Shown piece after piece: positions 46,413-61,043 of a stretch of 64,000 bases of DNA. Numbering within the stretch: the first letter of the stretch is position 1; each line of letters opens with the position of its first letter. Position numbers and translations under genes: made by a program. Under the pieces are notes generated by a model. The model searched no databases. It was given only the letters and a program-made list of their open reading frames with translations, and was not told the origin of the DNA. The stretch is from the NCBI GenBank assembly GCA_902618945.1, contig CACNCK010000002.1, positions 107,238 to 171,237 on the forward strand, written 5' to 3'. The DNA is from an uncultured SAR86 cluster bacterium. GTDB lineage: Bacteria > Pseudomonadota > Gammaproteobacteria > Magnimaribacterales > Magnimaribacteraceae.

Positions 46413-46880
46413 ATGAACATTGTTTTAACAAGACACGCTAAATCTAGCTGGGATAATTTGCATCTTACTGATCATGACCGCCCTTTGAATAGAAGAGGAA
46501 GGGAAGATGCAAAACTTATAGCTAAATATCTAGCTACTTATGAATATACTTATAAAACTATATTGTGTAGCACATCAAAAAGAACGTCTGAGACGCTAGA
46601 GATTTTCTTAAACTATATCCACAAAGTAGATCAAATTAATTACCTATCTAACTTATATCATGCTTCAGCAGAGACTATAAGAAAGGAAATTACCGCTTTA
46701 GACACAGATGGAACATATATGCTTTTAGGGCATAACCCTGGTATAGAAGACTTCTTAAGAAATCTCCATAAAGATAATTCTTTGAAAGTCCCCACGTGCT
46801 CAATAGCTTTATTGTCTAACCAAAATAATTCCCTACGGTTAAAAAAATTAATTACTCCAAAGGAATTAAAGTCACAATAA
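46413..46880 (+). CDS. SixA-like phosphohistidine phosphatase (histidine phosphatase superfamily)
   Basis: 'LTRHAKSSWDN...DHDRPLNRRGREDA', 'LLGHNPGIED'. Confidence 0.9.
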   Translation: MNIVLTRHAKSSWDNLHLTDHDRPLNRRGREDAKLIAKYLATYEYTYKTILCSTSKRTSETLEIFLNYIHKVDQINYLSNLYHASAETIRKEITALDTDGTYMLLGHNPGIEDFLRNLHKDNSLKVPTCSIALLSNQNNSLRLKKLITPKELKSQ

Positions 46881-46892
46881 GACTCTTTACAA

Positions 46893-46947
46893 TGTCACAC
46901 AAATGTCATATAAAAGACACATATGTGACAATTATGTGACATACAAG
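46893..46947 (+). promoter_or_regulatory. Five tandem 11-bp repeats, Pho-box-like PhoB-binding array
   Basis: TGTCACACAAA/TGTCATATAAA/AGACACATATG/TGACAATTATG/TGACATACAAG at 46893, 46904, 46915, 46926 and 46937. Confidence 0.65.
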
Positions 46948-46955
46948 GAGTAAAC

Positions 46956-47411
46956 ATGAAATTAATAAACAAAATAATTAGTTTAAGTCTAATAATGATT
47001 TCTTCTTATACATATTCGGAGTCCAATCACGGATCTCTTTTCTCATTTGCAGAAAATATGCTAGAAATCGAAGGAACTGCTCCTAATATAATATTTTCAA
47101 GCAATGATGAGATAGGTGATTTATGCTCTGATCAATTGATTGCTTGCTTTAGGTCTGATAAACCTTCAAACATATATATTCAAGCAGGACTTCAACTAGA
47201 CTTACTTAATACCACTTTAGTTGGTCTTATGTCCGATTATTTACAATTTAATGCAAATAAAAACATAGATAATTTAAAAAGTTGCAATGCTCAAGTTGAC
47301 TATCTTTTAAGCACATTTAAGGTAAATAAAGCCAAGATATATAAAGCTACTGCTTGCGGAAGGAAAACTATTTCACAAAAACAGATGGAAAATCTTTTAG
47401 CATCAAAATAA
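46956..47411 (+). CDS. exported protein of unknown function, candidate Pho-regulon member
   Basis: 151 aa, signal peptide 'MKLINKIISLSLIMISSYTYS', AAGGAG RBS, 4 Cys in the mature part. Confidence 0.7.
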   Translation: MKLINKIISLSLIMISSYTYSESNHGSLFSFAENMLEIEGTAPNIIFSSNDEIGDLCSDQLIACFRSDKPSNIYIQAGLQLDLLNTTLVGLMSDYLQFNANKNIDNLKSCNAQVDYLLSTFKVNKAKIYKATACGRKTISQKQMENLLASK

Positions 47412-47424
47412 ATTTCTTGGGGAG

Positions 47425-47455
47425 AAAAAAGAGGGACTTGATCCCTCTTTTTTTT
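47425..47455 (+). terminator. Rho-independent terminator
   Basis: AAAAAAGAGGGA-cttga-TCCCTCTTTTTTTT. Confidence 0.9.
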
Positions 47456-47555
47456 GCTTAGTTGAAACTAAAGTTACACTAAAATGTAATATTTTATCCT
47501 GATAATACACAAGATATAGTGCTAAATCTTGAATACATCACTATATGTTGTATAA

Positions 47556-48359
47556 ATGAATGAAGTAATAAAACTAATTCAACCTAAACATTATAAGACT
47601 ATTTGGCTTAGCGACATACACCTAGGCACCAAAGGATGTCAGGCAGAGAAGTTGCTAGACTTTTTATACGAGAATAGTTGTGACACATTATACTTAGTTG
47701 GAGATATTATAGATGGTTGGAGATTAAGCCAGAGTCTTTATTGGCCTCAGACCCACTCAAACGTAATTAGAAGATTTCTTTCTTTCTCTAAACAAGGAAC
47801 CGAGATTATCTTCATAACTGGTAATCATGATGAATTCTTAAGATCATTTTCACCAATTAATCTAGGAAATATCAAAATCATTGACGAGGCAATTCACACC
47901 ACTTGTGATGATAGAGAATTGTTAGTTATACACGGCGATGAATACGATGTAGTCACTAAATATAGTAGATGGATGGCAGTATTGGGATCAGTGGGATATG
48001 AATTTTTAATGGCCTTTAACAGAGGATGGAATATTTTACGCAGATTTTTTGGTTATAAAAATTATTGGTCACTTTCAGCTTATGTCAAGCACAAGGTAAA
48101 GTCAGCTGTTAATTTTATTAGCGACTTTGAAGAAACATTAGCCAGTGCATGCAAAAAACAAGGTTATGATGGAGTGATTGCCGGTCATATACACCATGCA
48201 GAAATTAGAGAAATTGATGGTATCCAATATATGAATTGTGGAGATTGGGTAGAATCATGCACTGCTCTTGTAGAGAAGGAAGATGGTGAAATTTGCATTA
48301 TTGATTACGGCAATAAAGTAAATGAAAATGATAAAGAAAATCAAATCGAAGTAGCATGA
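47556..48359 (+). CDS. plcP: Calcineurin-like metallophosphoesterase, UDP-2,3-diacylglucosamine-hydrolase-like; candidate PlcP phospholipase C
   Basis: 'WLSDIHLGTKG', 'LVGDIIDGWRL', 'ITGNHDEFLR', 'IHGDEYD', 'IAGHIHHAEIREIDGIQYMNCGDWVESCTAL'; adjacent to lipid-type glycosyltransferase. Confidence 0.78.
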   Translation: MNEVIKLIQPKHYKTIWLSDIHLGTKGCQAEKLLDFLYENSCDTLYLVGDIIDGWRLSQSLYWPQTHSNVIRRFLSFSKQGTEIIFITGNHDEFLRSFSPINLGNIKIIDEAIHTTCDDRELLVIHGDEYDVVTKYSRWMAVLGSVGYEFLMAFNRGWNILRRFFGYKNYWSLSAYVKHKVKSAVNFISDFEETLASACKKQGYDGVIAGHIHHAEIREIDGIQYMNCGDWVESCTALVEKEDGEICIIDYGNKVNENDKENQIEVA

Positions 48360-49366
48360 GAGTAGTTATCGTGTCAGACGCATGGTATCCACAAGTCAAT
48401 GGCGTCGTTACTACTCTTTCTCAGCTTAAACAGAATTTAGAAAAAAAAGGATACATTGTTGATCTTATAGAGCCTTCTTTATTTAAGACAACATCAACAA
48501 CTATTTATCCCGAAATTTCTCTTTCAATGAACCCTTGGAAAATAAAAGAATATCTAGATACAGAATTTGATTATTTACACATAGCAACAGAAGGACCTTT
48601 GGGTTTCTTTGCTCGAAGATTTGCCAACAAACATGACTTAAATTACACAACAGCTATTCATACTAAATTTCCAGAATATTTAAATAAAATGATTTTCTTG
48701 CCGGCTGCTCTTACTTACAAATATCTCAGATGGTTTCATAAGAACTCCACCGCAGTATTGGTTAATACTAATTCTCAGATTAAAGAACTTAAAAGCAAGA
48801 AATTTAAAAATCTCAAACTATGGAGTAGGGCAATTGACAAATTGATTTTTTACCCAAGAGAAAAAAAATGCGCAGATAACTATTTGCTTTATGTTGGAAG
48901 AGTATCTAGAGAAAAGAATTTAGAAGCATTTCTCAATCTTCCAACTCACGAAATCAAAGTTGTTGTTGGCTCGGGTCCTATGCTTGATGAATATAAAACA
49001 AAATATAAGGACATAAAATTTGTAGGTCCTAAATTTGGTAACGACTTGGCTCAATTTTATTCAGATGCTTCTGTATTTGTCTTTCCTTCAATGACAGACA
49101 CCTATGGAATAGTTATGATAGAGGCTATGGCTTGTGGCACACCTGTGGCAGCCTTTCCCGTGACTGGTCCTATCGATGTTATAGAGCCCAACCTTAATGG
49201 TTCTGTCAATGAAGACCTGGAAAGAGCAGTTTCTCAAGCAAAAGTAATTTCTTCTCAATCATGTATAGATTCAGTTAAAAATCTATCTTGGGACAGTGTT
49301 ACGCAAACTTTCTTGGATACTCTTGTTCACTGCAAATCTAATCAAGAAAAAATAGTTCAAGCATGA
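48356..49366 (+). CDS. GT4-family glycosyltransferase (SqdX/MgtA/Agt-like), candidate diacylglycerol glycosyltransferase
   Basis: 'SDAWYPQVNGVVTTL', 'LLYVGRVSREKNLEAFL', 'FPSMTDTYGIVMIEAMACGTPVAAFPVTGPIDVI'. Confidence 0.82.
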   Translation: MRVVIVSDAWYPQVNGVVTTLSQLKQNLEKKGYIVDLIEPSLFKTTSTTIYPEISLSMNPWKIKEYLDTEFDYLHIATEGPLGFFARRFANKHDLNYTTAIHTKFPEYLNKMIFLPAALTYKYLRWFHKNSTAVLVNTNSQIKELKSKKFKNLKLWSRAIDKLIFYPREKKCADNYLLYVGRVSREKNLEAFLNLPTHEIKVVVGSGPMLDEYKTKYKDIKFVGPKFGNDLAQFYSDASVFVFPSMTDTYGIVMIEAMACGTPVAAFPVTGPIDVIEPNLNGSVNEDLERAVSQAKVISSQSCIDSVKNLSWDSVTQTFLDTLVHCKSNQEKIVQA

Positions 49367-50706
49367 AATTAACTGTAGTTGGATCAGGTTATGTTGGGTT
49401 AGTTACTGCTGCATGTTTTAGTTTTGCTGGTCATGACGTTCTTTGTGTAGAAAAAGATAAAAAGAAAATTAGTTCCATCAAAAAAGGCAATCTACCCTTT
49501 TATGAACCAAATCTTGAAAACCTAGTTAAAGAAGGGATAAAAAATGGCAGATTAATTTTTTCTACTGATCTCTCCCTTATCAATGAATTTTCTGAAAGTG
49601 TTTTTATTTGTGTGGGTACTCCCAGTAATCCTGATGGATCAGCAAATATCAACTATGTTAAGAAATCTTTGAAGCAAATATTACTAATAGATAATTCAAA
49701 ATTAGAAGATATAGTTATAAAGAGCACAGTACCTCCCGGCACTGCAGATAGACTTTCTAGTGAAATATGTGAAAAAAGAAATATAGACTTGGTCAGTTGT
49801 CCTGAGTTTTTACGGGAAGGGTCCGCTGTTCAGGATTTTTTGAAGCCTCAACGAATTATACTAGGACTACATAATCAACGTAAAAGGGATAAATTCCGCA
49901 GTATTTTTTCCCCATTTAATAGGAAACAGGACAGAATACTTTTTATGGATCCTGTATCTGCTGAACTAACCAAGTATGCATCAAATGCTATGCTAGCAAC
50001 CAAAATCAGTTTTATTAACGAACTGTCTAGATATTCAGACCTTAAGGGAGCTAATATTGAAAAGGTCAGAATGGGAATGGGTTTAGACAGCAGAATAGGA
50101 TTAGAATATTTATATCCTGGTTGTGGATTTGGAGGTTCTTGTTTTCCTAAAGATATTGATGCTCTGATATCTTCCGCAAAAGAAGCTAACCTTAATCTTG
50201 ACCTTATTAAGGCAGTAAAGAAAATAAATCAATCTCAGCCAGACTATCTTATTGATAAACTTTCAGACCATTATGACAATCAATTAAATGGTAAGACAAT
50301 TTCTCTATGGGGGCTTTCTTTCAAGCCAAACACAGATGATATGAGAAGTGCACCCGCACTAAAGGTTATTTCCAAACTATTAGATTTAGGTTGCTTCTTG
50401 CAGATATATGATCCCAAAGCGATGGAAAACTTTAAGAATTCTCCACTTCATACCCCTAATACATTGTTATGTAATTCTGCATCAGAAACTCTTGAAGGAT
50501 CAGATGGACTTGTAATATGTACAGAATGGAGAGAGTTCTTTCAAATTGATTTAAATGTCTTTCAAAGAATGAAATCAAAAGTAGTCATTGATGGCAGAAA
50601 TATCTATCCTCTTGAAACAATGAAAGAAAATGACATAATCTACTATTCTATCGGCAGACCGTTTACAAATATTAAGCAAGGGAACATTGAATTAAAAGCT
50701 AGTTAA
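49363..50706 (+). CDS. ugd: UDP-glucose 6-dehydrogenase
   Basis: 'VVGSGYVGLVTAACFSFAGHDVLCVE', 'CPEFLREGSAVQDFLKPQRIILG', 'YPGCGFGGSCFPKD'. Confidence 0.93.
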   Translation: MKLTVVGSGYVGLVTAACFSFAGHDVLCVEKDKKKISSIKKGNLPFYEPNLENLVKEGIKNGRLIFSTDLSLINEFSESVFICVGTPSNPDGSANINYVKKSLKQILLIDNSKLEDIVIKSTVPPGTADRLSSEICEKRNIDLVSCPEFLREGSAVQDFLKPQRIILGLHNQRKRDKFRSIFSPFNRKQDRILFMDPVSAELTKYASNAMLATKISFINELSRYSDLKGANIEKVRMGMGLDSRIGLEYLYPGCGFGGSCFPKDIDALISSAKEANLNLDLIKAVKKINQSQPDYLIDKLSDHYDNQLNGKTISLWGLSFKPNTDDMRSAPALKVISKLLDLGCFLQIYDPKAMENFKNSPLHTPNTLLCNSASETLEGSDGLVICTEWREFFQIDLNVFQRMKSKVVIDGRNIYPLETMKENDIIYYSIGRPFTNIKQGNIELKAS

Positions 50707-50707
50707 T

Positions 50708-51121
50708 ATGAAAAGAGGAATTACTTTTGGAGCTTTTGATTTATTCCATGCCGGACATGTCCTTATGCTGAAAGAAGCCAAATCTGTTTGTGAACATTTA
50801 ATTGTCTGTGTACAAACTGACCCTAGTCTAGATAGGACAACAAAAAATACACCTGTTCAGTCAATTGTTGAAAGGCAAATACAAGTTTCTGCCTGTAAAT
50901 ATGTTGATGAAGTCATAATTTATGATACTGAAGCAGATGTACTTGAAATATTAGAGACTATGGATTGGGATATAAGAATTATAGGAGATGAGTATAAGGA
51001 CAAAGAATTCACTGGTAGAGATAAATACTTAGATCAATGCTACTTTAATCAGAGAACCCATTCCTTCTCAAGTTCTGAATTAAGAAAAAGAGTAGCTGAT
51101 AAACATTTTAGACCAAATTAA
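50708..51121 (+). CDS. TagD-like cytidylyltransferase (glycerol-3-phosphate cytidylyltransferase family)
   Basis: 'GITFGAFDLFHAGHVLMLKEAK', 'RTHSFSSSELRKRV'. Confidence 0.85.
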   Translation: MKRGITFGAFDLFHAGHVLMLKEAKSVCEHLIVCVQTDPSLDRTTKNTPVQSIVERQIQVSACKYVDEVIIYDTEADVLEILETMDWDIRIIGDEYKDKEFTGRDKYLDQCYFNQRTHSFSSSELRKRVADKHFRPN

Positions 51122-51152
51122 GTCACAGAAAATTAATAAATAATTTTCGTAT

Positions 51153-51175
51153 TTGTCACTTTGTGACACTATAAT
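51153..51175 (+). promoter_or_regulatory. phoB promoter with GTCAC-ttt-GTGAC element and TATAAT -10 box
   Basis: TTGTCACTTTGTGACACTATAAT; TATAAT at 51170-51175. Confidence 0.6.
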
Positions 51176-51181
51176 TTATAA

Positions 51182-51868
51182 ATGTCAAAAAATATTTTAG
51201 TTGTAGAAGACGAACCTGATTTAAGAACAACTCTTGAATTTAATTTAAGGTCAGAAGGATATAAAGTTAAGTCTGCTGCGGATGGTGAAGCCGCAATCAA
51301 AGAAATTGTAAAAAAAGTACCTGATCTTGTGCTTCTTGATTTAATGCTACCTGACATGTCGGGACTTGAAATTTGCAAAAAAATAAGAAATGAATCCTTT
51401 AGTGATCAAGTGTCTATCATCATGTTAACTGCAAAGGGAGAAGAAGTAGATAGGGTTGTGGGATTTGAACTAGGTGCTGATGACTACGTAGTTAAACCTT
51501 TCAGTGTTAGAGAGCTTATGTTGCGAATTTCATCAATCTTAAAAAGAGGATCAGAAACAAAAACTAATAAAGAACAAATTTCAATAGGTGATGTTGAAAT
51601 TAATTTAGCTTCACATAGGGTTTTTATAAGTGGTCTCGAAATTGAACTTACTGCAAAAGAGTTTGAATTACTTAAATACCTGGCGGAACGCAATGGAAGA
51701 ATTCAAACCAGAGAAGTATTATTGGAACAAGTGTGGGATTATAACAATTCAGTCACAACCAGAACTGTGGATACTCATATCAAAAGACTTAGATCTAAAA
51801 TCGGTGATGTGGGATCAAAAATAGAAACCGTCAGAGGTGTAGGTTACCGCTTTAATTACGTCGTATAA
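51182..51868 (+). CDS. phoB: phosphate regulon response regulator PhoB
   Basis: REC 'ILVVEDEPDLRTTLEFNLRSEGY...DLVLLDLMLPDMSG...GADDYVVKPFS' plus OmpR-type wHTH 'RTVDTHIKRLRSKIG...RGVGYRF'. Confidence 0.9.
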   Translation: MSKNILVVEDEPDLRTTLEFNLRSEGYKVKSAADGEAAIKEIVKKVPDLVLLDLMLPDMSGLEICKKIRNESFSDQVSIIMLTAKGEEVDRVVGFELGADDYVVKPFSVRELMLRISSILKRGSETKTNKEQISIGDVEINLASHRVFISGLEIELTAKEFELLKYLAERNGRIQTREVLLEQVWDYNNSVTTRTVDTHIKRLRSKIGDVGSKIETVRGVGYRFNYVV

Positions 51869-51875
51869 TCTATGA

Positions 51876-53609
51876 ATGGATATTAGATGGAGGATCTTCT
51901 GGTCTACTTTTTTGCTTACATCGATGACTGTTCTCAGTCTAGGATATTTACTCTTAGAAAGAACAGGTGATTATTTATTAGAACAATTAGACTCGGAGCT
52001 AACTTCTGAAGCAAAAGGTGCGATTTTTATACTCTCTAATCCAGATTATAAAATTTCCAGTTACCAAACACTTTCACGACAACTCTCAGATTCATATGGT
52101 TTTAGAGTTTCTCTCATCAAATCAAATGGTGAAGTGGTAGGCGACTCAGATGTCGAAGAGGAAGACCTTAGGAAACTGGACAATCATTACAATAGACCTG
52201 AAATTCAGGCAGCTATTATTAATAATATTGGTAAAGCGACTCGTTACAGTAATACCTTAAAAACAGATATGAGGTATCTTGCTTTAGCATCAAATAAAGC
52301 AGGAGACATAAACTTTGTTAGATTCGCCGTTCCACTATCTGAAATAGAAGCTACATTACTGGTTCTAGAAAATTCCGTATATGGCTTTTTGCTCGTATCC
52401 CTATTAATTGCTGTGCTTTTAAGTTATTTATTGTCTAGATTTCTAACGCTTGAGTATATTGAATTGATATCAAGTGCTAGAAAATTAGCAAAAACAAGTG
52501 GCATGAAGGGGTCGAAAAGAGCTGCAGTAGAGCAAATAAGTTCTAATTTAATTGAAATCCAGGGAGCACTTAAGAACGAGTTTACTGCTATTGCCAATGA
52601 AAGAAATCAGTTTGGAAATGCACTTGAAGAAATGGGACAGGGTGTAATTTCGATTAATAAAAATGGAATAATAGAATTAACCAACCCAGCTGCCAGTAAA
52701 CTGTTAGGTCTAGATAAGCTATCTATAGGAGATTCTTTTATGGAAAAGGTCTCAATATCTGGGTTACAAGACCTAATAAAGGAAACTACTTCTTCAGAAC
52801 CCGGATTAGATGAGATAGAAATACACCATCCCTTTTATAGAGCTTTTATTGCAAGTGCCAGTTTCAATCCAGATACGGAAGAGTCTTTACTCGTATTTTC
52901 AGATATTACTAGAATAAAAAAACTTGAATCTGCCAGAAGTGACTTTATAGGTAATGTCTCTCATGAACTTAGAACACCCATTTCGGTACTTTTAGCTTCA
53001 TCAGAGACTATTCTTAATACCGACATAAAAAAAGAAAAAGATCTAAAACAGTTTATTAAAGCTATACACCGAAATTCCGAAAGACTTAAAAATTTAGTAG
53101 ATGATCTTCTGCACTTATCGCGTATAGAGGGTGGCAGTCTTAATATGACTATCGAGAAGATAAATCTTGATCACATAGTTGAATCAACTATATTAAATTT
53201 AGAACAAGAAGCACTAAAGAAAAGTATAAACATTGAATCTCTGGTTGATAAAAGGATTGAAGTACTATCGGACTTCATTTCCTTGGATATTATAATCTCT
53301 AACTATTTAAATAATGCACTTGCTTATTCTCCAAATAATTCAAAAATCATAATTACTGCAGAAGAGGTAGATAAAAAGATAAAGTTATCAGTTAAGGATG
53401 AGGGAGAGGGAATACCTGAAAATTATAAAGATAGAGTTTTTGAAAGATTTTTTAGAGTTGATAAAGGGAGGTCTCTGAACCAGGGTGGTACTGGGCTTGG
53501 GTTATCCATAGTCAAAAATTTAGCTTCAACTCTTTCTTGTACAGTTGGGGTAGAAAATCTTGAGCCAAAAGGAGCAAGTTTTTGGATAGAGTTAAATAAA
53601 TCAACTTAA
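51876..53609 (+). CDS. phoR: phosphate regulon sensor histidine kinase PhoR (with extracytoplasmic sensor segment)
   Basis: H-box 'DFIGNVSHELRTPISVL', N/G boxes 'NNALAYSP', 'DEGEGIP', 'GTGLGLSIVKNLA'; two TM flanking about 130 aa, PAS-like domain. Confidence 0.9.
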   Translation: MDIRWRIFWSTFLLTSMTVLSLGYLLLERTGDYLLEQLDSELTSEAKGAIFILSNPDYKISSYQTLSRQLSDSYGFRVSLIKSNGEVVGDSDVEEEDLRKLDNHYNRPEIQAAIINNIGKATRYSNTLKTDMRYLALASNKAGDINFVRFAVPLSEIEATLLVLENSVYGFLLVSLLIAVLLSYLLSRFLTLEYIELISSARKLAKTSGMKGSKRAAVEQISSNLIEIQGALKNEFTAIANERNQFGNALEEMGQGVISINKNGIIELTNPAASKLLGLDKLSIGDSFMEKVSISGLQDLIKETTSSEPGLDEIEIHHPFYRAFIASASFNPDTEESLLVFSDITRIKKLESARSDFIGNVSHELRTPISVLLASSETILNTDIKKEKDLKQFIKAIHRNSERLKNLVDDLLHLSRIEGGSLNMTIEKINLDHIVESTILNLEQEALKKSINIESLVDKRIEVLSDFISLDIIISNYLNNALAYSPNNSKIIITAEEVDKKIKLSVKDEGEGIPENYKDRVFERFFRVDKGRSLNQGGTGLGLSIVKNLASTLSCTVGVENLEPKGASFWIELNKST

Positions 53610-54491
53610 ATTTTCGTTAAGATATTCAAAGGCCAAGGCATCACAAATTCCCCAATCTATAGCGAAAAGCTTATTTATATTTGAGTGCTCTAAAATATAA
53701 GAAAAAATATCTGAAGCGGGTACAATTACATCTGCTCTATCTTCCGCAAGACTATATTTATTTATTCGATCAACAATTGGCATTTTAGATAAATTTTTTC
53801 TGATTTCTTCAAATTCCTTAAGTTCTAAAGGACTATATTTTTGTATTTCAAGAATCTTAAAAATTCTCCTTATATTGCCACCGATACCCACTAAAGCGTC
53901 TGCATTATTTTCTTTAACTACATTCAAAAAGGCTTTTAACTTTTCCCATTCTTTTATGCTGTCTTTACCCTTCATAATTCTCACAGCACCAAGATCAAAT
54001 GATTCATAAAACTCTTCGGAGCTATTGCGCATATAAATTTCTGTACTGCCTCCTCCAACATCAACATAGATAGGGTGATTCAGGTTTTCAATTTTTCTTG
54101 TATTGGCACCTTTAAGGTAATAGGCCTCTTGTTTACCGCTTAATATATTAACAGGTGTCTGACAGGCTTCTTCAATCTTGCTACATACTTCATTTCCATT
54201 TACCGCATTCCTAGTAGCCGATGTTGCGCATATTCCAGCCCACTCTATTTTCCTTTTTCGAACTTTATTAGTAAGATTTTTAAGTTCTTGAATAAGTCTT
54301 TTTTCTGATTCTTCTGAGATCCTATTTGTTTCAAATACATCTTGTCCAAGCCTAAGATCAATTCTTTTAAAGGTATCTAACTCTAATGGGAAGAGATTCT
54401 TCGAGGTCCTAATCCTAAATTGCTTGAACTTAATTGCATTTGATCCAATATCAACGGCAGCAATTCGTTGGAAAATTTTCTTTGATTTCAA
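53601..54491 (-). CDS. ppx: Ppx/GppA family exopolyphosphatase
   Basis: 'AAVDIGSNAIKFKQFRI', 'YVDVGGGSTEIYM', 'IGGNIRRIF'. Confidence 0.88.
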   Translation of the reverse strand: MKSKKIFQRIAAVDIGSNAIKFKQFRIRTSKNLFPLELDTFKRIDLRLGQDVFETNRISEESEKRLIQELKNLTNKVRKRKIEWAGICATSATRNAVNGNEVCSKIEEACQTPVNILSGKQEAYYLKGANTRKIENLNHPIYVDVGGGSTEIYMRNSSEEFYESFDLGAVRIMKGKDSIKEWEKLKAFLNVVKENNADALVGIGGNIRRIFKILEIQKYSPLELKEFEEIRKNLSKMPIVDRINKYSLAEDRADVIVPASDIFSYILEHSNINKLFAIDWGICDALAFEYLNENLS

Positions 54492-55327
54492 CTGGATTGA
54501 TTTTGTATAAGTTTTTGTAACATTTTAAACTGCTGATATGTGAGCCCGGAAAACTCAACACCTTTATATTCTAGTTTGTGGTTATTTATGCCTGCATCCC
54601 ATGTTTTGGGTTTGCTAAGTTTTTTTCCTTCATAGTCAATCTCATTTAAGAGATACCTTAAGGCTGTTAAGCGAGCGACCATTTTATTATTTGCATTAAT
54701 CACTATCCAAGGACTTTGCTCATAAGATGTGTTTGAGAACATTTGTTCTTTAAAAAAAGAAAAAATCTCCCATTTATCTGCCATTCTTAAATCATTAGTA
54801 CTTAGTTTCCAGAGTTTCAAAGGGTCAGTTTGTCTTTCGTTGAACCGTTTGCTTTGTTGTCTTTTTTCAATGGACAAATAGAACTTGATCAAAATAAGGT
54901 TGTCTTCAATATATGATTTTTCCCATCTTATGACTTTGTTCATAAAATGAGTGTATTGCCTTTTAGAGCAATAACCCATAGTTATCTCGACCGTGGCTCT
55001 TGTGTACCAAGATCTATCAAAAAAAACTATTTCGCCTTTTTTAGGCATATGTTTTTCATAACGTTTAAACCATTTTTTTGATTCATTTTCAGTTGGTATT
55101 CCTAAATGCACATACCTAAAATGATCAGGAATAAGATGTTTGGCTAATAGATTGATTGTGTCAGTTTTCCCAGCTGCGTCCCTTCCTTCAAAAACAACGG
55201 CTATTTTTTTCCCTTCTTTAATTGCCCAATTTTGAAGCTTAAGAAACTCAATTTGTAGACTTCTTTTTTCTTTTCTATAAAGGTCGGGATTGAGTCTGTT
55301 GTATTCGGAAACGTCGTAGTTGATCAT
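54488..55327 (-). CDS. ppk2: polyphosphate kinase 2 (PPK2 family)
   Basis: 'VFEGRDAAGKTDTINLLAKHLIPDHFRYVHLGIPT', 'GEIVFFDRSWYTRATVE'. Confidence 0.93.
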   Translation of the reverse strand: MINYDVSEYNRLNPDLYRKEKRSLQIEFLKLQNWAIKEGKKIAVVFEGRDAAGKTDTINLLAKHLIPDHFRYVHLGIPTENESKKWFKRYEKHMPKKGEIVFFDRSWYTRATVEITMGYCSKRQYTHFMNKVIRWEKSYIEDNLILIKFYLSIEKRQQSKRFNERQTDPLKLWKLSTNDLRMADKWEIFSFFKEQMFSNTSYEQSPWIVINANNKMVARLTALRYLLNEIDYEGKKLSKPKTWDAGINNHKLEYKGVEFSGLTYQQFKMLQKLIQNQSS

Positions 55328-55438
55328 AATAAAATTGTGTGAATATTAAAGTAGGGTATGTAATAAATAAAGGTGATAAGTTATATTTCACATAATATAA
55401 ATTGACACCAATAAATTTCTGGAGTGTGATGCCATAAA

Positions 55439-56668
55439 ATGATCATTGAATTCGCTCTTCCAATTTTAATTCTTACAGCGCTAGCCGGCTTGATAATGGC
55501 CTGGGGAATTGGTGCAAATGATGTTGCCAACGCCATGGGAACATCGGTAGGATCCGGCGCTATTACCCTTTCGACCGCTATCTTAATAGCCTGTATATTT
55601 GAATTCTCGGGAGCCTTTTTAGCTGGTGGAGAAGTAACCTCTACGGTTAGAAAAGGTATTCTAGATCCCTTATTATTTGAAGATAATCCTGACCTGTTTG
55701 TATTTGGAATGATATCAGCACTGCTAGCTGCCGGAACATGGCTTGTGGTTGCTACCTATTTTGGATGGCCTGTTTCAACTACCCACACCATAGTAGGAGG
55801 TATAGTTGGTTTTGGAATATTGGGATTATCATTTTCAGCAATAGATTGGGGCACGATGTCAGATATAGCTTTAAGCTGGCTTCTATCTCCCCTTATATCA
55901 GGGACTATATCTTTCTTAATATATCTATCTATAGACAAATTAATTTTAAGAAATAACAACCCAATTCAAATGGCACAAAGATATGGCCCAATATATCTTT
56001 TCTTCGTTGCCTTTATTGTCAGTATGGTGACTTTTACCAAAGGACTTAAGCATATTGGTCTAGGTTTAGATTACACAGATAGCATAATCTATTCATTTAT
56101 CTTTGGTTTATTTATAACTTTCTTAGGTTTTGTATTTTTATCAAGACTAAGAAATAGTTCTATAGATCAAATTTTCGGAATACTAATGGTATTCACAGCT
56201 TGCGTGATGGCGTTCGCCCACGGTTCTAATGATACAGCTAATGCGGTTGGGCCCGTAGCCGCAGTATTCTCAACTGTTATGAATGAAGGTGTATCAAAAG
56301 AAGCGGCAGTATCAGTTTGGCTTCTGCTTGGAGGCGGAATAGGGATAGTTCTTGGTCTGGCAATGTGGGGTTATAGAGTTATTCAAACTATAGGAAAAGA
56401 AATTACTAAACTAACCCCTACTAGTGGTTTTGCTGCAGAACTGGCAGCTGCTACTACGGTTGTTATCGCATCTGGTAATGCCATGCCCATTTCAACGACG
56501 CATACTTTAGTCGGAGCGGTGTTTGGTGTCGGCTTAGCGATGTCTGTTAAAGACCTAGATTTCAAAGTAGTTGGCAAGATAGTAGCCTCTTGGTTGACTA
56601 CCGTTCCAGCAGGAGCAATTCTCTCAATGATTTTTTTAACACTATTTAGATACTTATTCCAGATCTAA
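55439..56668 (+). CDS. pitA: inorganic phosphate transporter (PiT family)
   Basis: 'WGIGANDVANAMGTSVGSGAITL' and 'FAHGSNDTANAVGPVAAV' duplicated PiT signatures; 'PISTTHTLVGAVFGVG'. Confidence 0.94.
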   Translation: MIIEFALPILILTALAGLIMAWGIGANDVANAMGTSVGSGAITLSTAILIACIFEFSGAFLAGGEVTSTVRKGILDPLLFEDNPDLFVFGMISALLAAGTWLVVATYFGWPVSTTHTIVGGIVGFGILGLSFSAIDWGTMSDIALSWLLSPLISGTISFLIYLSIDKLILRNNNPIQMAQRYGPIYLFFVAFIVSMVTFTKGLKHIGLGLDYTDSIIYSFIFGLFITFLGFVFLSRLRNSSIDQIFGILMVFTACVMAFAHGSNDTANAVGPVAAVFSTVMNEGVSKEAAVSVWLLLGGGIGIVLGLAMWGYRVIQTIGKEITKLTPTSGFAAELAAATTVVIASGNAMPISTTHTLVGAVFGVGLAMSVKDLDFKVVGKIVASWLTTVPAGAILSMIFLTLFRYLFQI

Positions 56669-56681
56669 TCGTAACCAAATT

Positions 56682-56729
56682 ATCACAAAGTGACAGCATA
56701 ATTGTCACCAAGATTATAGAGAATATACT
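56682..56729 (+). promoter_or_regulatory. Promoter and Pho-box-like sites upstream of TonB receptor/phytase
   Basis: ATCACAAAGTGACAGCATAATTGTCACC followed by TTGTCA-N16-TATACT. Confidence 0.5.
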
Positions 56730-56749
56730 GCTTATATTTGGAGAAATTT

Positions 56750-59284
56750 ATGTTACGTCTGAGTTTTTTGTCGATTTTTTCTTTATCTCTTTCCCTTTTT
56801 GTCCCCAATTTCGCATTTGCAGACGAAGATTCGTCGCAAGCCGATGAAGAAGTTGTAGTTGTAGGCTCTCTTGCTAGCTTAAGAAGTGCCCTCAACAAAA
56901 AAAGGGATTCTGACAAAAATGTTGGTGTAATTGATTCTGATGCCTTAGGAAATTTTGCCGACATTAACGTAGCTGAATCCTTGAGGAGAATTTCAGGTAT
57001 TTCAGTTGAAAATGATCAAGGTGAAGGAAGGTACGTAACTGTGAGAGGTATGAACACTGATTTGAACGCAATGACTATCAATGGAGTCAGTACAGCTTCT
57101 CCTGAAGATAGAAGAGGTGTGATACTAGACGGTGTTCCTACAGATCTTCTAGATTCAATGACGGTTTATAAGACACTCACTCCAAACTTAGATGCAGATA
57201 CAATCGGAGGAGCTATAGATTTAGAAACGATTTCAGCATTTTCTTACGGATCAAATTTTGTAAAATTTAAAGCTGAAACTTCTAGAAATGACCTTACAAA
57301 AGATAGCAGTAATCCTAAATTGTCAGGTACATATACTACAGTTATTCCACAAGAGAATGGTGATCTTGGAATAGCATTTGTAATCAGCTCCCAAGAAAGA
57401 CGCATCAAGGCAGAAAATAATGAAGCTGGCGGTTGGGGATCTACTTATGTAGATGATGACTATGAAATGCGTTACTACGATCTCACAAGAGAAAGAGATG
57501 GAATAGTTCTTAATCTAGATTATGTATCAAATTCAGGAAGTAAAACTTATTTACATCTTTTCCATAACGAATATGAAGATGTTGAATATAGGGCAAAGTG
57601 GGAAGTTAGAGACGTAATGGAAGAATACACACCAACAATATCTGGAACTGTAGCGACATATGGAGCTTCTAGAATGGATACTGAAGGGAAAAATAGAACT
57701 GAAATTCGATCTATCGATAATTTAGCTATTGGCCATGAGACCCAACTTGCAAATGGAGGCTTTTTAGAAGTTCAAGCATTTAGATCTGAAGCAGAACAAG
57801 ATGATACAGATAGATATAATTTAATATTTAGAAGTAAAGAAAAAGATGGTGTTACTACACTAGATACTGCTAATCCTCAGAAGCCGGTTTTAGGACTTCC
57901 CTCCGAATTCTATGATGCCTCTACATTTCCAGGAAAGGCAGCAGAACAAGAATATGCCCTTACTGAAGATGAAGAACAGGGCTTCAAAATTGATTACACC
58001 TATATGATCGGTGAAACAGTTGTGCAGACTGGACTAAAGTATAGACAAAGAGAAAAGATAAATAATTATCAATTCTGTGAGTACGATATGCCAAAAGGTA
58101 CTACATTGGCAGATTATGATTATCAGACAATAGGAAAGTATTTGGCAAACACACACGGACCTGCTCCAACTTTTGAACAAGTTAAATCAATAGTAACAAA
58201 TAATACTTCCGGAACAGTTACATTCTCAGACGGTACTACCTGTCCTGGACCAGGAACTTACTTTAGAGGTATGGGTGGTGATGAAGAAGAAGAATCTATT
58301 CCAGCAGACTGGACAACAGAAGAAGACATCCTAGCCTTATATTTTATGGGTACAACTTTGTATGAAAACTCCACTTGGGTTTATGGCATAAGATTTGAAG
58401 ATACTGAAACTACCTACAAAGGTAAAAACTGGAATGATACTTATCTTGGAGATAATGAATTTGAAAATAACTACTCCTTTGCAGCACCCTCTTTAAACAT
58501 TAAATATGACATCTCAGATGATATGGTTCTTAGATTTGGTGCATTTAGATCACTTGTAAGACCTGGATTTAAAGAATCAAGAGCTGGTGCGATTATCAAT
58601 GTTGAGGATAATGAAATAGAAGGTGGAAATCCTAATTTAGATCCTACCAAAGCCACCAATGTCGATATTTCGTTTGAATACTATATTGATGAGAATACTT
58701 TCTTAGGAATGGGTGCTTTCTATAAAAATATAGAGGATGCGATTGTAGAGGTTGAATCTCGTAGTTTTGCAATGCGAGGATCAATATGGGATAAAGCGGA
58801 AACTTATATCAATGCCGATGATAGCAGCATCAATGGCTTAGAGTTTTCCTATCAAACAGCTTTTGATAATGGCTTCATTTTAGTTGCAAATTATACATAT
58901 GCAGACGGTGAAACTGACTTACCTGCTGATGCTGCTGCAGGACAAAGGACTATTCCATACTTTAAACAAGTAGAAAATACATGGAATCTTTCTCTAGGCT
59001 ACGACGATGGTCCATGGGATATTAGATTGGCCGCAACATACAGAGACAATTACCTTGATGAAGTAGGATCTAAGCCTCTTAATGATCGTTATACAGATGA
59101 TCATATGCAAGTTGATTTAACTGCAAAATATAAAGTTAATGATTCTTTAAGAATAACGTTTGAAGCTATTAATTTAAATGATGAACCTGAGTATTATTAC
59201 TTTGGTAATCCTTCAAGACTCTCGCAATATGACGAGTATGGAGCTACTTATGGAGTTGGATTTAGGTATATCTTGAATCAATAG
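56750..59284 (+). CDS. TonB-dependent receptor, candidate phytate/organic-P receptor
   Basis: Signal peptide, plug 'NVAESLRRISGISVENDQGEGRYVTVRGMNTDLNAMTINGV', barrel end 'ATYGVGFRYILNQ'; ATG at 56750 after GGAGA preferred over the track's TTG. Confidence 0.92.
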   Translation: MLRLSFLSIFSLSLSLFVPNFAFADEDSSQADEEVVVVGSLASLRSALNKKRDSDKNVGVIDSDALGNFADINVAESLRRISGISVENDQGEGRYVTVRGMNTDLNAMTINGVSTASPEDRRGVILDGVPTDLLDSMTVYKTLTPNLDADTIGGAIDLETISAFSYGSNFVKFKAETSRNDLTKDSSNPKLSGTYTTVIPQENGDLGIAFVISSQERRIKAENNEAGGWGSTYVDDDYEMRYYDLTRERDGIVLNLDYVSNSGSKTYLHLFHNEYEDVEYRAKWEVRDVMEEYTPTISGTVATYGASRMDTEGKNRTEIRSIDNLAIGHETQLANGGFLEVQAFRSEAEQDDTDRYNLIFRSKEKDGVTTLDTANPQKPVLGLPSEFYDASTFPGKAAEQEYALTEDEEQGFKIDYTYMIGETVVQTGLKYRQREKINNYQFCEYDMPKGTTLADYDYQTIGKYLANTHGPAPTFEQVKSIVTNNTSGTVTFSDGTTCPGPGTYFRGMGGDEEEESIPADWTTEEDILALYFMGTTLYENSTWVYGIRFEDTETTYKGKNWNDTYLGDNEFENNYSFAAPSLNIKYDISDDMVLRFGAFRSLVRPGFKESRAGAIINVEDNEIEGGNPNLDPTKATNVDISFEYYIDENTFLGMGAFYKNIEDAIVEVESRSFAMRGSIWDKAETYINADDSSINGLEFSYQTAFDNGFILVANYTYADGETDLPADAAAGQRTIPYFKQVENTWNLSLGYDDGPWDIRLAATYRDNYLDEVGSKPLNDRYTDDHMQVDLTAKYKVNDSLRITFEAINLNDEPEYYYFGNPSRLSQYDEYGATYGVGFRYILNQ

Positions 59285-59301
59285 GCAACTTTCTTTAACA
59301 T

Positions 59302-59333
59302 GAAACTCCTCTCTTTGAGGAGTTTCTTTTTTA
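59302..59333 (+). terminator. Rho-independent terminator
   Basis: GAAACTCCTC-tcttt-GAGGAGTTTC-TTTTTT. Confidence 0.92.
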
Positions 59334-59354
59334 AAGCTCAAAAAAAACCTTAAT

Positions 59355-60392
59355 ATGAAAAATATAATTTTTTTCCTTTTCTTCGTATCATTTACTATGA
59401 GTGCTGCCATAGAAGATCATAAAATTTATCCTATTTATGAAACTGAAGCAGTAAAAACATCGGGTGATGCTGCCGATGACCCGGCATTTTGGTTTAACAA
59501 AACAAATCCTGAAAAAAGTATTGTTTTTGGAACAGATAAGAAATCAGGTATTTACACTTACGACTTGTCCGGTAAAACATTAAATTATTTTCCCATGGGA
59601 AGGATAAATAATATTGATTTAAGATCTGATTATATAATTCAAGACAGAACAGTCTCGTTATTGGCCGGTACAAATCGAGATCTTAATAGAGTTGATTTTC
59701 TGTTGATTGGATCAAATGGCAGTGTTGTTGAGTATTATGATAACTCTTATCAGACTGAACTAACCTCTGTTTATGGTCTCTGTATGTTTAAAGATACAGA
59801 TAACTCTAAAACTTTCATATTTGTTACTGATGAGAAAAGTCTTGCAATATACCAGTATGAGATTCAATCCTATGCTCCTATGTCTGCAAAATTAGTCAGA
59901 ACAATACCTACTCAATCTGTATCTGAGGGTTGTGTAGTAGATGATGATTTAAAAATACTTTATTTTTCCCAAGAAGACGAAAAATCTGGAATCTTCAAGA
60001 CAACAGCAATGCCAGAAGGTGGAAATATTGAAACAGTAGATTTAATTAAACCATCTGGGAATATAACCGGCGATTCCGAAGGGTTAGCTTTAGTTAAATT
60101 ACCTGATCAAACATTATTAATTTCATCATCTCAAGATTCTAATGAGTATCTAATTTATACAACCGGCATCGAAAATCGGTACCTTGGTAAATTTACTATT
60201 GCAATTTCAACTATAGATGGAACAAGCGAAACAGATGGTATAGAGGCCTTTTACGGGCCATTAAGTCCTCAATTTCCTTTAGGAATTTTTATTGCTCAAG
60301 ATGATGTAAACCTTGATCAATACGGTGAACCAATAAATCAAAATTTCAAATTTTCTTCTCTGAAAGATGCAATAGATCCTTTTATTAAATAG
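59355..60392 (+). CDS. 3-phytase, beta-propeller phytase family
   Basis: 'GDAADDPAFWFN', 'SEGCVVDDDLKILYFSQED', 'GDSEGLALVKLPDQTLLISSSQDSNEYLIY', 'ETDGIEAFYGPLSPQFPLGIFIAQDDVN'. Confidence 0.93.
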   Translation: MKNIIFFLFFVSFTMSAAIEDHKIYPIYETEAVKTSGDAADDPAFWFNKTNPEKSIVFGTDKKSGIYTYDLSGKTLNYFPMGRINNIDLRSDYIIQDRTVSLLAGTNRDLNRVDFLLIGSNGSVVEYYDNSYQTELTSVYGLCMFKDTDNSKTFIFVTDEKSLAIYQYEIQSYAPMSAKLVRTIPTQSVSEGCVVDDDLKILYFSQEDEKSGIFKTTAMPEGGNIETVDLIKPSGNITGDSEGLALVKLPDQTLLISSSQDSNEYLIYTTGIENRYLGKFTIAISTIDGTSETDGIEAFYGPLSPQFPLGIFIAQDDVNLDQYGEPINQNFKFSSLKDAIDPFIK

Positions 60393-60458: not shown

Positions 60459-61043
60459 ATGTGCGGAAGATTCACACTTAGAAACTTAGATGATCTCAAG
60501 ACCAGGTATGGAGAAACGGATTTTAGACCTAGTTATAATGTTGCTCCTGGTCAAAAAATATTAGCTCTTACCGATAAATTCCAAACAATGGAATGGGGCT
60601 TCTCGCCTTATTGGGCTGAAAAGCCATTCAATTTGATAAATGCAAGAATAGAAACTCTATTTGAGAAACCATCTTTTACTAATTCCAATAGATGTCTTAT
60701 CCCCTCAGATGGTTGGTATGAGTGGAAGCTAGAAGACGAAGTCAAAACACCATATTTTCATCATCTAAATGGAGATATCTTTTTCTTTGGTGGAGTCTTT
60801 GGAGGATACAGAGGGAAGGTGGGATGCGCTATAGTCACTAAAGATGCAGTTGAGTCTTTAAAAAATATTCATCAGAGAATGCCTTTGATTATTTCAAGAC
60901 AACACTTTCAAGATTGGTTAAACGGAGACAATATTGACTGTTCAGATATCTTTTCTTCAAAAGCAATCAAAACTCATCCTGTTTCGACACATGTAAATAA
61001 TCCATTCAGTGATGATCCCAAGTGTGTATTTCCCGTAAGCTAG
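60459..61043 (+). CDS. SRAP domain protein (HMCES/YedK family)
   Basis: Catalytic Cys2 'MCGRFTLR', 'YNVAPGQ', 'INARIETL', 'CLIPSDGWYEW'. Confidence 0.95.
   Translation: MCGRFTLRNLDDLKTRYGETDFRPSYNVAPGQKILALTDKFQTMEWGFSPYWAEKPFNLINARIETLFEKPSFTNSNRCLIPSDGWYEWKLEDEVKTPYFHHLNGDIFFFGGVFGGYRGKVGCAIVTKDAVESLKNIHQRMPLIISRQHFQDWLNGDNIDCSDIFSSKAIKTHPVSTHVNNPFSDDPKCVFPVS

Follow-up and report, generated by a model that had tools for sequence, protein, structure and literature searches.

The closest known kind of system to the one described here is the flexible phosphate island of HIMB59 (PMC10734472). Such islands occupy a fixed position across the order, occur in several gene-content versions that do not follow phylogeny, and carry PhoR-PhoB, polyphosphate kinase, Ppx, SixA, an LpxH-like phosphoesterase, and a glycosyltransferase (RfaG). 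Their exchange is thought to occur by homologous recombination, without tRNA or insertion sequence borders. We found the same features in a locus at positions 46893-60392 of a 64 000-nucleotide stretch of contig CACNCK010000002.1 (assembly GCA_902618945.1), the whole of which is called the window below. The source organism is a SAR86 bacterium, and the locus is a gammaproteobacterial variant of this kind of island.

Every HIMB59 version contains Pst together with PhoU, whereas SAR86 has no detectable PhoU, rarely has Pst, and uses Pit. SAR86 also differs in having a TonB receptor with phytase or a porin as alternatives, a variable PhoR sensor domain, and a separately exchanged glycolipid cassette. 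For the lipid genes, PlcP was previously reported in SAR86, and Agt makes monoglucosyldiacylglycerol (MGDG) and glucuronic acid diacylglycerol (GADG) in SAR11 (PMC4796936). In marine heterotrophs, as in SAR86, plcP is directly followed by the gene for an Agt-like glycosyltransferase (PMC4796936). However, in SAR86 the pair belongs to a recombining cassette of a larger phosphate locus, and one version of this cassette has Ugd while the other lacks it.

SAR86 bacteria are among the most abundant bacteria of the surface ocean. Little has been written about how they handle phosphorus. A recent survey lists pit as core and Pst as patchy in SAR86 (PMC11582366). In the literature searched, the titles and abstracts of the three papers that name both SAR86 and phytase mention no such locus.

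Results

The locus is exchangeable as an allele, and the lipid cassette nested in it is exchanged separately. We think it likely that it is a flexible SAR86 phosphate-acquisition island with a phosphate-scavenging function, one allele of a fixed locus that has been re-equipped by homologous recombination. The assembly that carries the window, G000, has 1.37 Mb and is 82% complete; genome counts below are over 61 genomes. In family f1, the position is fixed, with DUF3604, ECH, GATase, and TauD genes on one side and an SRAP gene on the other. Compared with G017, the plcP-agt-ugd-nucleotidyltransferase segment of G000 (about 47.5-51.1 kb) is 97-100% identical in nucleotides, as against 86-95% for the preceding sequence and 90-99% for the following one. 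Compared with G005, by contrast, the lipid cassette is only 62-76% identical and Ugd is missing, in surroundings of 92-100%. The alternative cassette, without Ugd at the locus, is also found in G006, G010, and G034. G015 and G008 share 92-95% nucleotide identity in DUF3604, ECH, and GATase, as does G008 with G000, yet differ inside the locus. The G008 allele has a soluble PhoR of 362 residues, a Porin_4 porin, a DUF47-Pit pair, and ppx-ppk2 at the far end. In G012, PstSCAB stands between the porin and DUF47. Pst is also present in G039 and G057 of family f3, where the porin and PstSCAB lie beyond ppk2 (L130:2821-9828); Pit was not found in these two genomes.

The island of G034, which belongs to another genus than G000, lies on one contig whose flank is 62-85% identical in amino acids, as against 86-99% for the island outside its lipid cassette. 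The left edge of the block common to G000 and G034 is the gene for a SixA-like phosphohistidine phosphatase (46413-46880, plus strand; PF00300, 40.7 bits). This protein is 95% identical in G034, and the product of the next gene, TauD, is 82% identical. The right-hand anchor of the exchanged block is the SRAP peptidase gene (60459-61043, plus strand; PF02586, 160 bits), whose product is 94% identical in G034 but only 66% in G021, a congener of G034. Neither a tRNA gene nor a long repeat was found at the island edges, which fits homologous recombination, as has been argued for HIMB59 (PMC10734472).

The gene order of the island is conserved across the order at 30-100% identity. The whole island is found in the same-genus genomes G005, G010, and G017, as well as in G034, in the same order and with 86-100% amino acid identity outside the lipid cassette. 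It is split over contigs in G013; in G006, the left end and the TonB receptor-phytase end are on separate contigs; and in G015, the island is more diverged and lacks plcP, agt, and ugd. Other SAR86 families have the order phoB-phoR-ppx-ppk2-pit or ppx-ppk2-pit-TonB receptor-phytase at 30-67% identity, and a Ppx-PPK2/Pit order, often with the TonB receptor and phytase, is seen in all four families. A TonB receptor beside a beta-propeller phytase is known in many bacteria, and in our survey of 80 phytase loci from diverse bacteria (4 from SAR86, 76 from others), a match to the TonB receptor was within about 10 kb of the phytase in 37. However, Pit, PPK2, and Ppx stood alongside in all 4 SAR86 loci and in 0 of the 76 others. 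Because the order recurs in SAR86 and was seen in none of the other loci, the consolidation is, within this sample, a SAR86 trait and not an accident of G000. The consolidated phosphorus locus of a first-pass annotation, made from the letters of the window, is therefore real, and its genes are not juxtaposed in this genome alone, since relatives have the same order and other families a diverged form of it. The annotation had also described almost every gene as fitting phosphorus homeostasis. This is right for the content, but the locus is an exchangeable allele with a separate lipid cassette rather than a fixed unit. Outside SAR86, the closest phytase (44%) is in the PS1-clade single-cell genome AG-343-O05 (L229:7428-11044), directly behind another TonB receptor, which may be a sign of transfer from one marine lineage to another.

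Phytase and porin exclude each other. A phytase was found in 24 genomes and a porin in 22, and no genome has both, while 8.7 would be expected if they were independent (hypergeometric 4e-7, ignoring relatedness). The exclusion is seen in three families, and it holds also for single genomes that depart from the habit of their family: G044 carries the porin in a group of phytase genomes, and G036 the phytase in a group of porin genomes. DUF47 and phytase likewise never occur in the same genome. An exact Pho box was seen upstream of the porin in G039.

How does PhoR sense phosphate in SAR86? PhoU was found in none of the genomes, although 13 of 14 control genomes gave a match in the same search; PstB was found in three. 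Neither was found in G000 or in G005, a one-contig genome with the same island. Since PhoU is absent from all of the genomes, canonical Pst-PhoU sensing is unlikely. The G000 locus encodes PhoB (51182-51868, plus strand; TIGR02154, the best NCBIfam match, 257 bits, cut-off 296) and PhoR (51876-53609, plus strand), which has HisKA and HATPase domains, a weak PAS match, and an extracytoplasmic Cache/PDC-like sensor domain of about 141 residues. Its first helix is just under the hydropathy threshold, which the close relative G015 passes. The PhoR model of NCBIfam scores 247 bits (cut-off 334), second after PnpS. The loop gives a weak sCache-like match, and the structure model (pLDDT 89) has the Cache/PDC sensor domains of WalK, KinD, DctB, and 3cwf as fold matches. 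In these respects, the SAR86 protein resembles those PhoR-type kinases that possess an extracytoplasmic domain, namely PnpS and the PhoR of Bacteroidota and of Bacillus. It differs from them in the apparent losses of the loop within SAR86 and in that no PhoU partner was found. The loop is present in 16 of the 29 PhoR proteins examined; another 7 show two membrane helices and next to no loop, and the remaining 6 have neither. A tree built from the kinase part requires three changes in loop state, consistent with three losses. Most loop-less PhoRs accompany a porin. A strict link between sensor loss and porin was considered, but it is weakened to a tendency by G036, which has a phytase but lacks the loop, and by G044, which has the loop together with a porin. 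Given the lack of PhoU throughout, and since no Pst, DUF47, or porin was found here, the signal probably reaches PhoR of G000 by way of its own extracytoplasmic domain or some other partner.

The regulatory sites are of two kinds. Upstream of orf151 is a Pho-box array of five units on an 11-bp grid (46893-46941), with TGTCA at 46893 and 46904, AGACA at 46915, and TGACA at 46926 and 46937. The exact sequence TGTCA-N6-TGTCA occurs only twice in the assembly, both times in this array. Boxes were judged by the score of three units at 11-bp spacing against 1000 shuffles, and the score of the G000 array was reached in 0 of 1000. Units of this kind stand directly upstream of orf151 in three families, namely in G000, G017, G005, and G015, and also in the distant genomes G038 and G036; in each of these, at most 2 of 1000 shuffles did as well (p<=0.002). 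A promoter-like pair, TTTACA-N17-TATAAA (46886-46914), encloses the first two units, a layout that might point to repression of orf151 and not to its activation.

The second kind of site is an inverted repeat, TGTCACTTTGTGACA (51154-51168), the putative phoB operator, which is followed by TATAAT (51170-51175), six nucleotides, and the ATG. The exact sequence TGTCAC-N3-GTGACA occurs once in the G000 assembly, at phoB. In 12 genomes of family f1, the site lies 12-13 nucleotides before the ATG with at most one mismatch, which was reached in 0 of 500 shuffles for each genome. The succession of palindrome, one base, -10-like hexamer, six bases, and ATG is found in 11 of these, with one base fewer in G020, and it is kept also in genomes whose PhoB shares no more than 66-72% identity. 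As the hexamer is only six nucleotides from the ATG, the phoB transcript is predicted to be leaderless. Before the TonB receptor gene, a related operator-like site, TATCACAAAGTGACA plus TGTCAC (56681-56708), has a third TGTCA half-site, whose distance to the first is exactly 22 bp (2 x 11); the palindrome is exact in G005 and G034.

Is the palindrome a PhoB site? Its geometry differs from the 11-bp direct repeat, and its position one nucleotide before the phoB -10 hexamer would suit a repressor. Thus, TGTCAC-N3-GTGACA might belong to another regulator, with PhoB acting only at the array before orf151. We regard this as possible but doubtful, since the half-site TGTCA is the same as in the direct repeats, and the 22-bp spacing at the TonB receptor is twice their period. 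A genome-wide scan with these motifs found exact sites only at the locus. Near-matches hardly exceed the reversed control patterns (palindrome, up to two mismatches, 19 against 14; direct repeat, up to one mismatch, 25/31 against 19/28), and a genome-wide regulon is therefore not derivable from the motif. A third palindrome-like site, at C3:59339 (L003), is intergenic, with no recognized phosphorus gene in the 3 kb examined around it. The Escherichia coli-type Pho box CTGTCATN4CTGTCAT was uninformative (6 matches in the window with up to three mismatches, 5.5 expected), and a promoter-like scan gave no excess over shuffles.

Directly behind the first array is orf151 (46956-47411, plus strand), which the first-pass annotation overlooked and which, of all the putative targets of regulation at the locus, has the strongest support. 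It matches no Pfam family and appears to encode a secreted protein. Nine members, including that of the window, were found in the loci retrieved, all at the Pho locus and from three SAR86 families. We propose that they form a new family of putative secreted proteins linked to the Pho locus of SAR86. Four cysteines are invariant, as is a GLxSDYLQ motif in a long helix. The structure model (pLDDT 79) has zincin-like neighbors at the top of its match list, all of them weak (E>=0.12), and the zincin motif HExxH is not present. As a lead only, orf151 may have a degenerate peptidase fold.

Discussion

The proposed working of the G000 allele is as follows. At low phosphate, PhoR-PhoB would switch on the phoB and TonB-receptor promoters and orf151. 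The TonB receptor and a periplasmic phytase would then free phosphate from organic phosphorus such as inositol phosphates or related compounds. Pit would carry the phosphate across the inner membrane, and PPK2 and Ppx would buffer it as polyphosphate. PlcP, Agt, and Ugd would replace phospholipids by glycolipids, with Ugd allowing glucuronosyl head groups.

Several points weigh against this reading of the locus. There is no significant 11-bp-spaced box upstream of ppk2, pit, or phytase in the shuffle test, and only a marginal one upstream of plcP (p 0.049). Terminator-like hairpins precede plcP, where a hairpin with a T run lies 3' of orf151, and phytase, where one lies between it and the TonB receptor gene (59302-59326, plus strand); the block is therefore several transcripts. 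Absences at the G000 locus rest mainly on G005, one contig and 95% complete, and on other good relatives; the genomes are related, so that the counts are not independent trials; and a chimeric contig in the 51%-complete assembly of G034 keeps some small probability. Thus, the idea of local cis elements serving one regulated system is only partly borne out, with boxes upstream of orf151, of phoB, and of the TonB receptor gene but not of plcP, ppk2/pit, or phytase, and one PhoB regulon for the whole locus is plausible but unproven.

The separate transcripts and missing boxes would also suit adjoining units without common control, namely a lipid operon, a PhoBR/polyphosphate/Pit group, and a TonB receptor-phytase pair used for carbon (inositol), and whether the lipid cassette is present does not depend on the other genes. 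We consider this unlikely, since the phoB and TonB-receptor operators share a motif, Pit is co-located with the TonB receptor and phytase in several families, and phytase and porin are mutually exclusive. A vertically inherited neighborhood in a streamlined genome, in which relatives differ by loss only, is very improbable: the gene order common to all four families makes an ancestral cluster plausible, but exchange is required because of the sharp identity steps inside near-identical flanks, the mosaic cassette (close to G017, distant from G005), and the G034 block, and in family f1 the nucleotide identities already contradict loss alone.

Returning to a flexible phosphate-acquisition island, we tentatively suggest that across the order the locus offers an either/or choice of route through the outer membrane, with TonB receptor and phytase or with porin but not with both. 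The PhoR sensor would tend to be missing with the porin, so that PhoR of the G000 type would read a periplasmic signal without Pst and PhoU, and orf151, as a secreted pseudo-zincin whose Pho box is the strongest detected genome-wide, might be a new sensing or scavenging partner. A locus that swaps inorganic-phosphate for organic-phosphorus equipment, together with a separate glycolipid cassette, offers a concrete marker set for studying how populations track phosphate. Furthermore, PhoBR without PhoU in a whole order is a natural minimal case that makes phosphate sensing by PhoR testable.

Genes of the locus

The families named in the first-pass annotation were confirmed at their positions, with Pfam scores above gathering for metallophos, GT4, UDPG_MGDP_dh, CTP_transf_like, Response_reg and Trans_reg_C, HisKA and HATPase, Ppx-GppA, PPK2, PHO4, TonB receptor, and Phytase. 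Assignments were made by Pfam gathering thresholds and NCBIfam equivalog cut-offs, and PhoB, PhoR, and PPK2 stay under the latter. On the plus strand, the PlcP-like calcineurin-type phosphoesterase (47556-48359; PF12850/PF00149), the Agt-like GT4 glycosyltransferase (48356-49366; PF13692/PF00534), and Ugd, of UDP-glucose 6-dehydrogenase type (49363-50706; TIGR03026, 434 bits), are encoded by genes that overlap by 4 bp each. The PlcP-like protein is distinct from LpxH, whose models score 42-53 bits against cut-offs of 134-190, and is a candidate phospholipase C for the removal of phospholipid head groups. Directly after ugd is a small nucleotidyltransferase gene (50708-51121, plus strand; PF01467, TagD/RfaE-II-like), whose product scores under every NCBIfam equivalog cut-off. 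The first-pass annotation had counted it, as a cytidylyltransferase, in the phosphorus set, to which it is not specific. Relatives that lack plcP, agt, and ugd keep it at this position, as do porin-type alleles, and so it is a neighbor of phoB rather than a lipid gene.

Convergent with phoR on the minus strand are ppx (53601-54491; TTG start, short exopolyphosphatase type, PF02541 107 bits, TIGR03706 165 bits, cut-off 307) and ppk2 (54488-55327; PF03976 237 bits; TIGR03707, the best NCBIfam match, 284 bits, cut-off 302), which overlap by the 4 bp already noted in the first-pass annotation. Divergent from ppk2 is pit (55439-56668, plus strand; PF01384 378 bits, gathering 33.7), whose partner in relatives, DUF47, was not found in G000. 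The TonB-dependent receptor is of the TonB-Xanth-Caul type (56750-59284, plus strand; TIGR01782 515 bits), with the ATG at 56750, after GGAG, a more likely start than the TTG at 56738. The beta-propeller phytase (59355-60392, plus strand; PF02333 220.9 bits, gathering 21) has a signal-like N-terminus, and its DAADDPA and NNxDxR columns are invariant in seven SAR86 phytases.

Transfer of the G000 allele by phage was considered and rejected, since the viral contigs encode PlcP relatives of only 40-53% identity and no orf151. Adjacent PlcP-like and Agt-like genes, with 50-53% and 39-42% identity to the island, were seen on the viral contigs L319 (7998-9747), L318, L320, L321, L322, and L325, and a phage-borne lipid-remodelling cassette is possible from this arrangement. 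L319 also carries an endolysin, homing endonucleases, and a phage-type thymidine kinase, and L318 has a nucleotidyltransferase beside the pair.

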